The notes under the pieces are model-generated. The model did no database searches and was not told where the DNA came from. It worked only from the letters and a program-made list of their open reading frames with translations. This document shows, one piece after another, positions 5,561 to 8,145 of a stretch of DNA of 25,921 nt. The position numbers were made by a program, and so were the translations under genes. Where the stretch lies: positions 1 through 25,921 of the IMG/VR virus record IMGVR_UViG_3300042465_005358, one strand, 5' to 3'. Numbering within the stretch: the stretch's first letter is position 1; every line of letters starts with the position of its first letter. This DNA is from a virus.

Positions 5561-6013
5561 TCAGATCTCCCTTACGTGCGTTCGTTCGGTGTTCACGTAT
5601 CCCATGCGCCCGAGCATCTTTGCAACGGGCGTCGTGCCTTCGATGACGAGTTCGCTCATGCACATGAGCTGCGCGCCGCGCTCCTTGCCCCACGCCTCAA
5701 GCGCGTGCATGAGCCGGAACGGGATGCGCGTCATGCGATGCGCGGGGTCCACCCACCATGCCAGTTCGACGGCGGCCGTGACGCTCGGCGCAAACCACAT
5801 GGGCGCCACGACGCCGACCACGGCCCCGACGATGCGTTCGCCGACCTCGGCCACGAACACGACGCCGGCCGTCAGCACGGCCCGGAGGCCAGCACGGATG
5901 TCATCGTCGGACGGCGCGATCATCGTGCCGTACGCGCTGTAGGCGAGGAACTCGCGGGCCATTGCGGTCAATGCGTCGATGTCCTGCTCGGTGGCGTGGC
6001 GAATGATGCTCAC
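5561..6013 (-). CDS. GNAT-family N-acetyltransferase
   Basis: This 150-residue protein has a GNAT layout: an N-terminal beta strand with IRHATEQDIDAL, the acceptor-side helix, VVFVAEVGERIVGAVVG (strands 2-4), AVELAWWVDPAHR with the acetyl-CoA-side pattern, and MHALEAWGKERGAQLM. The C-terminus is MLGRMGYVNTERTHVRE. GNAT enzymes transfer acetyl from acetyl-CoA to amines or protein lysines; the substrate here is unknown. The start is GTG at 6013 with AGGA upstream. The gene lies between terminase and portal, an accessory insert also seen in some related phages. A 17-nt motif upstream (6031-6047) suggests a transcript start. Confidence 0.85.
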   Translation of the reverse strand: MSIIRHATEQDIDALTAMAREFLAYSAYGTMIAPSDDDIRAGLRAVLTAGVVFVAEVGERIVGAVVGVVAPMWFAPSVTAAVELAWWVDPAHRMTRIPFRLMHALEAWGKERGAQLMCMSELVIEGTTPVAKMLGRMGYVNTERTHVREI

Positions 6014-6047: not shown

Positions 6048-7379
6048 TCACATGTCCTCGTACGGGTCGTGATCCTCGCGGCGCGGCGACAGCTTCTCGC
6101 GCACCTCTCGCGGCAGCATCTTGGCGACCGGGTAGGCGAACGTGAGCGCGAGCGCGTCGGCGATGTCCGGGCTGCCGCCGCCTTGGAGCCGCTTCTTGAC
6201 CTCGTCCTTGGACTCGAGGACGCGCTTGCCCACGTTGTCGTACCAGTACAGCGGGGTGGACAGTTCCTGCTTCAGGTCGGTGCGGTCAGGGATCGCGCCG
6301 CCCTGGTCGATCCATTCCTTGATGGCCCACCACATCTCGGTGCGCTTGTTCACGAACAGGTTCGGGAACGTGGCCTTGCCGCCGAACGGCACCTCGGTCA
6401 CCTCGTAGCCAAGTTGCCGCAGACGGTCGATCACGCCCGCGCCGGCTCCCGCGTCGATGAACACGGCGTCCGGGTCGCGCTCCTCGATGACGTTGGCGAC
6501 TGCCGCCGCTAGCGCCATGTTGTCGATGCCCGTATAGATTCGTGGGTTCTCCATGCGGAGCCCTTGCCGCAGGACGATGGCGCTGCGGTCATCGCCGAAC
6601 CGTGCCGGGTCCACGCCAATGACGAGCGGGGCGTCAATCACGTCGCCGTCCTGGTACTCGCGCTCGGCGGCGCTGTCGGCGTCGGACAGGCTGATGAGCT
6701 GGTCATCGCCTGCGGCACTGAAGTCGCACAGGTACTCGCGTGCGAACGCCTGCTCGGGCATGTCGCGCTGAAGGCGAGCGACCTCGTCAAGATCGAGCGC
6801 GTCGGTGTCGTGGACCGTATATCGGGCCGCATACCAGTCTGGCAGGCTGCCTGCGCGGTAGAACAGCTCGCTGAACAGGTTGATGCCTGCGGGCGTGCCG
6901 ATGAACATGGCCCAGCCCTTGCGGTCGGAGAGGGCGGGCTGGATGATGTCGTTCCAGACCTCGGGCTTGATCTGGGCGACCTCGTCGATGACGCACCCGT
7001 CCAGGCGCACGCCGCGCAGGGCGTCGGGGTTGTCGCCCCCGAACAGGCGGATCGTGGCCTTGTTGTGCTTGAACGTGACGGCGAGGTCGGCCTCGTTGAC
7101 GTCCACGGCGCCCGTGCGGATGAACGGGTCGATCTTCTGCTTCAGGCGCGCCCAGGCGATGGCCTTGGCCTGCTTGAGGTACGGCGCGGTGTAGACGAAG
7201 AACCCGAGGTCGCCCGTGAACTTGAGGGCGGCGTTGAGGAGCTGCATTATGGCGAGCTCCGTCTTGCCGGCACGGCGGTGCAGGGCGAGGACCGTGAACC
7301 GCTTGCGTTCCTTGTGGCACTTGCGCTGCCACGTGCGCGGGACGTACCCGAGCGTGACGGTTTCAGCCTTCGTCGGCAT
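6048..7379 (-). CDS. terL: Terminase large subunit (DNA-packaging ATPase/nuclease)
   Basis: This 443-residue protein carries the full set of terminase motifs. The Walker A box is LHRRAGKTE (about 33-41), the Walker B box is CVIDEV (about 129-134), and the coupling motif begins GTP (161-163). The RNase H-like nuclease domain has acidic residues in VIGVDPARFGDD (D257), FIDAGAGAG (D309) and SPDIADAL (D405). It pumps DNA into the procapsid and cuts concatemers. The ATG at 7379 overlaps the end of the small subunit gene by 17 bp. All catalytic residues are present, so it is likely functional. Confidence 0.95.
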   Translation of the reverse strand: MPTKAETVTLGYVPRTWQRKCHKERKRFTVLALHRRAGKTELAIMQLLNAALKFTGDLGFFVYTAPYLKQAKAIAWARLKQKIDPFIRTGAVDVNEADLAVTFKHNKATIRLFGGDNPDALRGVRLDGCVIDEVAQIKPEVWNDIIQPALSDRKGWAMFIGTPAGINLFSELFYRAGSLPDWYAARYTVHDTDALDLDEVARLQRDMPEQAFAREYLCDFSAAGDDQLISLSDADSAAEREYQDGDVIDAPLVIGVDPARFGDDRSAIVLRQGLRMENPRIYTGIDNMALAAAVANVIEERDPDAVFIDAGAGAGVIDRLRQLGYEVTEVPFGGKATFPNLFVNKRTEMWWAIKEWIDQGGAIPDRTDLKQELSTPLYWYDNVGKRVLESKDEVKKRLQGGGSPDIADALALTFAYPVAKMLPREVREKLSPRREDHDPYEDM

Positions 7380-7944
7380 CCGGCACGCCCGTGATGACGT
7401 TCAGGGTCACGCCGCCAGCATGATCCACGGACACCTTTTCGGCATACCTGGCGGGGTTCGTCATGCGGAGGATCTTGAGTTTGGTGTCGATCTGGTACTT
7501 GCGCCAGGTGGCCTGCACGGGCGTTTCCGGCTCGATGTCGGCGATCTCCTCGCACCGCTCAAGGGCCGCCTCCTGCCCCTGCTCGCGGGCCGCCTTGTAG
7601 TGACAAGCAAATTTCTCGTCCGCCTCCAACCAAAGCATCACGGTCTGCCGGGTCGGCTTACCGGGTTGCTCGCAGAATGACAGCAGGGTCTTGCCCTTTG
7701 TGAGCCACGCAAGTATCTCGCTGGCGAAGGGTTCCGGTGCCTTCTCAAGCCGCGGTCGGCCCCTCGGTCGCTTCGGGGACGCGCTCCCATCGGCGGGGGA
7801 CGGCGACGCGGCGTTGGTACTTCGCGATCTTGGCGACGGTGTACCAGGCGAGCCCGAGGTGCTTTGCGATGCGGCGGTAGCCCCATCCGTGGTCTTCGTG
7901 GAGTTCGCGGATTTCATCGACGATGGCTTGCGGGATCGTGGCAT
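7363..7944 (-). CDS. terS: Terminase small subunit (start uncertain; 5' part overlaps HTH gene)
   Basis: The conserved part runs from about codon 60 (PRGRPRLEKAPEPF) through an HTH-like ASEILAWLTKGKTLLSFCEQ region. It continues with TRQTVMLWLEADEKFACHYK, ALERCEEIADIEPET and KILRMTNPARYAEK, matching small terminases that bind the packaging site. The gene overlaps terL by 17 bp. Upstream of codon 60 the frame is low-complexity Ser/Thr/Pro and runs antiphase through the HTH gene at 7745-8002. The only ATGs are at 7944 and 7917. No ATG or GTG occurs in frame again until codons 102-103, inside the conserved domain. Either the protein has an overprinted N-terminus or it is made by +1 frameshifting. 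Confidence 0.75.
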   Translation of the reverse strand: MPRSRKPSSMKSANSTKTTDGATAASQSTSGSPGTPSPRSRSTNAASPSPADGSASPKRPRGRPRLEKAPEPFASEILAWLTKGKTLLSFCEQPGKPTRQTVMLWLEADEKFACHYKAAREQGQEAALERCEEIADIEPETPVQATWRKYQIDTKLKILRMTNPARYAEKVSVDHAGGVTLNVITGVPDADEG

Positions 7945-8002
7945 GGTGGTGGCTTTCCCCTACCCGTCGCCCGTTCTCGCCGTAGGCGACGAGGCGGGTC
8001 AC
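7745..8002 (-). CDS. HTH DNA-binding protein before terminase (85 aa)
   Basis: The core, IVDEIRELHEDHGWGYRRI followed by AKHLGLAWYTVAKIAKYQRR (about 27-65), is a clear helix-turn-helix of the resolvase/transposase-like type. It may regulate transcription or bind the packaging site. The start is GTG at 8002, overlapping the stop of the preceding small gene (GTGA). The stop codon at 7747-7745 lies inside the conserved beginning of the small terminase frame. Two CCC proline codons near the end (one at 7798-7796, in a run of five C) lie where a +1 shift would enter the terminase frame. Confidence 0.75.
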   Translation of the reverse strand: MTRLVAYGENGRRVGESHHHATIPQAIVDEIRELHEDHGWGYRRIAKHLGLAWYTVAKIAKYQRRVAVPRRWERVPEATEGPTAA

Positions 8003-8145
8003 TTCTTGCGGGCCTTGGACTTGCGGGCGTCGGCGCGGTTGAACTTCTTCGCGACGGACATGGGCACGCCGACCTTCTTGGCGAAGGCTGCGGAGTGTGC
8101 GGCGGCGGCCATCATGCGGCGCTGGGCGGGTGACTTACTCGGCAT
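7999..8145 (-). CDS. Small basic phage protein (48 aa)
   Basis: This 48-residue Lys/Arg-rich protein begins MPSKSPAQRRMMAAAAHSAA and continues FAKKVGVPMSVAKKFNRAD. Short proteins with this 'KSPAQ..MAAAAH..AFAKKVG.P..VAKEF' pattern recur in phages and prophages and have no known function. The ATG at 8145 has AAGGAAG six bases upstream. The frame is open further upstream but antisense-like there, so this start is preferred. It overlaps the preceding regulator gene by 11 bp and the following HTH gene by 4 bp. Confidence 0.75.
   Translation of the reverse strand: MPSKSPAQRRMMAAAAHSAAFAKKVGVPMSVAKKFNRADARKSKARKK

Follow-up and report, generated by a model that had tools for sequence, protein, structure and literature searches.

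A putative small terminase gene start within an upstream helix-turn-helix gene of a viral contig, conserved together with an open +1 frame

The window analyzed here, a 25,921-nt viral stretch (IMG/VR record IMGVR_UViG_3300042465_005358), has a series of overlapping minus-strand genes. An ORF at 8386-8135 and a 48-aa ORF at 8145-7999 are followed by a gene for a helix-turn-helix (HTH) protein and by the terS and terL genes for the small and large terminase subunits (Table 1). The terS frame is +1 relative to the HTH frame, and the first in-frame ATG of terS (ATG1) is located 58 nt past the HTH start, a position it occupies in every one of the 53 unique sequences considered below. The 48-aa product (MPSKSPAQRRMMAAAAHSAAF...) is basic; its ORF (7999-8145, minus strand) overlaps both neighbours, and several relatives have a similar end. 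Downstream of terL, a minus-strand ORF at 5561-6013 resembles a GNAT acetyltransferase, and an acetyltransferase is annotated in the matching place in phages ctQRb9 and ctEw122.

Table 1. Features of the HTH/terS/terL region (window coordinates).
Feature	Coordinates	Strand	Remarks
HTH gene	7745..8002	-	85 aa; GTG 8002 to TGA 7745; GTG overlaps TGA of preceding gene
terS, small terminase subunit	7363..7944	-	193 aa; ATG 7944 to stop 7363; matches Sf6_terminase PF20901, phrog_1482 and Sf6 gp1 structures
terL, large terminase subunit	6048..7379	-	phrog_2, E=3.1e-53; 17-nt overlap with terS end
HTH/terS out-of-frame overlap	7745..7944	-	200 nt; terS codons 1-66
Putative terS start codon ATG1	7942..7944	-	formed by HTH codon 20 (CAT/AAT) and codon 21 (GCC); 53/53 unique sequences
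Overprinted TerS N-terminal tail, residues 1-58	7771..7944	-	predicted disordered; composition a by-product of HTH codons
Weak Shine-Dalgarno-like sequence, GGGTAGGGGAAAG	7947..7967	-	precedes ATG 7944; incompletely conserved among relatives
CCC codon, proposed +1 slippery site	7796..7798	-	not conserved: CCC-C in 8/53

AlphaFold2 predicted a helix-turn-helix fold for the HTH protein (helices at residues 25-37, 42-49 and 53-64, with pLDDT of 76-86 there), and comparison with Pfam gave weak HTH_21 and HTH_23 matches. The terS product is better defined. Its residues 73-173 match Sf6_terminase (PF20901) with E=1.7e-19 and 70.2 bits against a curated cut-off of 27, the protein matches phrog_1482 (E=1.7e-21), and residues 61-177 match Sf6 gp1 in the PDB by sequence (E about 3e-13). 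The predicted fold is similar to that of Sf6 gp1, including the N-terminal HTH (Foldseek E=5.8e-6 to 2.3e-5 to 4dzp, 4dzj and 3hef; TMt 0.61-0.67), and terS directly precedes terL, as is expected of an Sf6-type small terminase. Judged by these matches and the structural model, TerS has a body of the ordinary Sf6 gp1 type, which is intact, conserved and equipped with its own N-terminal HTH. A sequence-only reading of the locus had placed the small terminase start within the HTH gene, as can indeed be seen in Table 1, and had suggested overprinting or a +1 frameshift, the latter yielding an HTH-terminase fusion that adds a DNA-binding domain to the packaging protein. Since the TerS body already has an Sf6 gp1-like HTH, such a fusion is unnecessary, and this suggestion is not upheld.

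The same reading had correctly recognized that ATG 7944 (codon 1) and ATG 7917 (codon 10) are the only upstream in-frame ATGs, and that the next ATG or GTG is found at codons 102-103, within the Sf6_terminase domain. TTG is likewise absent from the terS frame of the window between 7917 and codon 102. Relatives with the same gene arrangement were gathered by scans of viral contigs, which retrieved many such contigs, while a scan of genome contigs retrieved none; the conservation set consisted of 53 unique HTH sequences aligned over 75 codons. No ATG, GTG or TTG is present between terS codon 11 and the GRP motif in 16 of them, the window included. Another 34 have a possible later start (ATG, GTG or TTG), usually a GTG or ATG within codons 57-61; they keep ATG1 and the open terS frame as well. 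In the remaining three, a ParB/methyltransferase gene is located downstream in place of terS.

Both frames are conserved in 53/53 unique relatives, as expected of an overprinted pair: each keeps ATG1 and a terS frame that is open through the overlap. HTH codon 20 is CAT in 9 and AAT in 44 sequences, followed by GCC, so that it ends in T in every case. T-ending His/Asn codons make up 4.8% in 49 pooled terL genes, and the other two-fold sites of the 53 HTH sequences show 228 C vs 7 T before the overlap and 350 C vs 72 T within it. In a single sequence with random synonymous codons, ATG1 and the open frame occur together with a probability of 5-25%, a value obtained with a codon table that overstates T and that also underlies the tests of mRNA structure and tail composition and the genome-usage version of the frame-openness test.

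A null simulation was evaluated on the HTH tree under HTH-only constraint, with terL codon usage and with branches scaled to the observed third-position divergence of 0.30; it superseded earlier versions that overpredicted control-frame stops. ATG1 survived on average in 12-14 of the 53 tips and was never retained in all of them (0/600 runs). The terS frame stayed open in all 53 tips in 2/600 runs, and ATG1 and the open frame were both retained in 0/600. The calibration is rough and imperfect, with control-frame stops in 16-23 simulated tips vs 11 observed; the tips are related, recombination is present, and the root was fixed to observed sequences. When HTH codon usage was used instead, frame openness alone was unsurprising and is weak evidence. 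By this comparison, the start codon and the openness of the second frame are maintained by selection beyond that acting on the HTH protein. The simulation was constrained by HTH because the HTH frame dominates, its third positions varying most within the overlap.

Conservation of the start and the frame does not extend far into the sequence of the tail. TerS residues 1-5 and 7-55 have pLDDT below 50 and are predicted to be disordered. Amino-acid difference is 0.37 for the tail vs 0.23 for HTH, and when terS and terL are compared at matching protein identity, synonymous codons of the overlap prove only slightly more conserved than theirs. Selection on tail composition, suggested at first by fewer hydrophobic residues than random, was considered and rejected: third-position T is rare genome-wide, and low tail hydrophobicity is a by-product of genome codon use. 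The tail sequence thus appears to be under little constraint. DNA binding by Sf6 TerS depends on a lysine of its unstructured N-terminus (PMC11331095), and by analogy a basic disordered tail could aid DNA binding here. A more elaborate proposal, that the tail is a functional long basic DNA-binding arm and that the shared 200 nt couple HTH and TerS amounts from one mRNA, seems to us unlikely.

A conserved Shine-Dalgarno sequence upstream of ATG1 was looked for and rejected. The match in the window is -6.5 kcal/mol at a long spacing of 13, the same test gave -1.7 to -2.1 in L041, L047 and L011, and several subclades have no match. Selection for low mRNA structure around ATG1 was not detected either, as structure was not below expectation; the dip near ATG1 is due to the HTH amino acids. 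Initiation at ATG1 is possible via coupling to HTH translation.

Other relatives have overlaps of other lengths. The shortest, of 4-22 nt, belong to ctQRb9, ctEw122 and Limnohabitans phage DC33, where terS starts close to the HTH end; further classes have overlaps of 35-62 nt, of 119-140 nt (L165, L188 and possibly the L078 clade) and, in the main clade, of about 197-233 nt. (The DC33 record, PQ492659, is classed as Inoviridae yet carries tailed-phage terminase genes, probably a taxonomy error.) In the HTH tree, the long-overlap main clade is grouped with 97/98 support and the deeper forks are weak, so a short-to-long direction of change is an inference. The L078 clade could be read as loss of ATG1 with a new ATG at the His codon of RELHEE; we do not rely on this reading, as GTG starts near the HTH end are also present.

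The downstream part of the locus changes while the HTH gene and the tail stay: several TerS types and the ParB/methyltransferase gene are joined near codons 57-62. In L013-L020, a swapped TerS body, about 60% identical to that of the window (7762-7363), follows an HTH gene and tail almost the same as in the window, which indicates a recombination junction near the GRP motif. L108, L125 and L126 carry the HTH gene and overprinted tail followed, from terS-frame codons 57-58 onward, by a ParB-like/DNA methyltransferase gene. L126 has a different small gene ahead of terL. These three keep ATG1 and the open frame even though the next gene has its own ATG. Such conservation is unexplained by terS and counts against the explanation we favor.

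Several explanations of the overlap other than initiation at ATG1 have to be weighed. The +1 frameshift would occur at CCC-C (7798-7795) or near the HTH stop and produce an HTH-TerS fusion. As the sequence-only reading had pointed out, a +1 shift does lead from the HTH frame into the terS frame, and the window CCC lies in a run of five C. An alignment of the regions upstream of terS in related phages, which that reading had proposed as a check, speaks for overprinting, with ATG1 in every sequence, and against frameshifting. Codon 69 is CCC in 33, CCA in 19 and CCT in 1 of the 53 sequences, and no other conserved slippery column exists near the HTH end. The position of the HTH stop is not fixed (L010 reads 45 codons further), and terS is in another frame relative to HTH in L162 and L211; the conserved slippery site or stop context and the constant frame relation that mark programmed +1 frameshifting are therefore both lacking. 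Distant relatives, L162 and L211 among them, start terS with an ATG at the HTH end. Frameshifting also leaves the conservation of ATG1 unexplained and, since ATG1 is kept by selection, is not needed; we regard it as very improbable. Least probable of all is that an assembly or sequencing indel split one HTH-TerS gene. L039, with frame breaks in both HTH and terS that are probably assembly errors or decay, looks like such a case, but independent assemblies gave 53 unique sequences with both frames unbroken, and no relative checked has HTH and terS in one frame, so that the comparison already refutes this reading.

The other two alternatives concern the place of the start. terS might use a weak or non-standard start codon close to the GRP motif, at about codons 57-61, leaving the upstream open frame untranslated. 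In distant relatives terS does begin 6-10 residues ahead of GRP, and an ATG or GTG within codons 57-61 occurs in many members of the main clade. In the window, however, a search of codons 11-64 for ATG, GTG, TTG, CTG and ATH found none, codon 61 being AGG, and ATG1 and the open frame persist beyond chance even where a later start is available; we give this possibility little credence. A start at ATG 7917 appears slightly less credible still: this in-frame ATG is shared by the window and its closest relatives, but it is missing outside that subclade and no Shine-Dalgarno match is found upstream of it.

We consider it highly probable from the sequence comparison that TerS is made from its own ATG 7944 in the +1 frame, inside the HTH gene, and that the overlap grew by 5′ elongation of terS. 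Besides the three relatives with a ParB/methyltransferase gene, the points that speak against this are the weak and unevenly distributed Shine-Dalgarno match, mRNA structure that is not reduced around ATG1, the possible later starts in 34 relatives and the slight constraint on the tail. HTH and terS would share 200 nt on one mRNA. An ancestral terS start at the HTH end would have been replaced by starts progressively deeper in the HTH gene, and this elongation would have added a 58-residue disordered tail onto an ordinary Sf6 gp1-type TerS. We infer ribosome initiation at ATG1, a short-to-long direction of evolution and the production of both proteins from what the comparison establishes at the sequence level, namely the position and conservation of ATG1, the open frame and selection on both, together with the lack of any other start in the window and 15 other unique relatives and of any conserved slippery site.

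Lambda Rz/Rz1 is a familiar phage case in which a gene starts inside another in the +1 frame by separate initiation, likewise proposed here for HTH/terS. Rz1 is a small lipoprotein in its own right, whereas in HTH/terS overprinting is confined to the N-terminal tail of a conserved protein. The body of TerS resembles Shigella phage Sf6 gp1 (PF20901; PDB 3hef, 4dzp) in sequence, in fold and in having its own N-terminal HTH; the matched part of gp1 begins at its residue 7-10, so gp1 has no 55-60-residue overprinted tail like that of the window TerS. Long same-strand phase-1 overlaps arising by 5′ elongation of the downstream gene are a described class (review PMC3887535; phase bias PMC2542354), and the HTH/terS pair shares with it the same strand, the +1 phase and an explanation by loss of the old start and use of an upstream start inside the neighbour. 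A survey of 715 co-directional overlaps in prokaryotic genomes found no genuine case longer than 60 nt and attributed those to misannotation (PMC2478687). In contrast, the HTH/terS overlap is 200 nt long, its start is conserved in 53 sequences and selected, and intermediates exist. It is of a known kind, longer and better supported than the described cases. A partial literature search found no papers on this gene pair.

The overlap described here takes up 200 nt of an essential packaging gene and is backed by start-codon selection and by 16 unique sequences without another start. terS is unannotated in ctQRb9 and ctEw122, the two nearest GenBank phages; in the GenBank phages L161 (MW202722) and L162 (MW202640), the terS frame is clear yet unannotated. 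Annotation that forbids long overlaps would shorten or lose terS in this clade, and the relatives with shorter overlaps show how a long overlap can grow.
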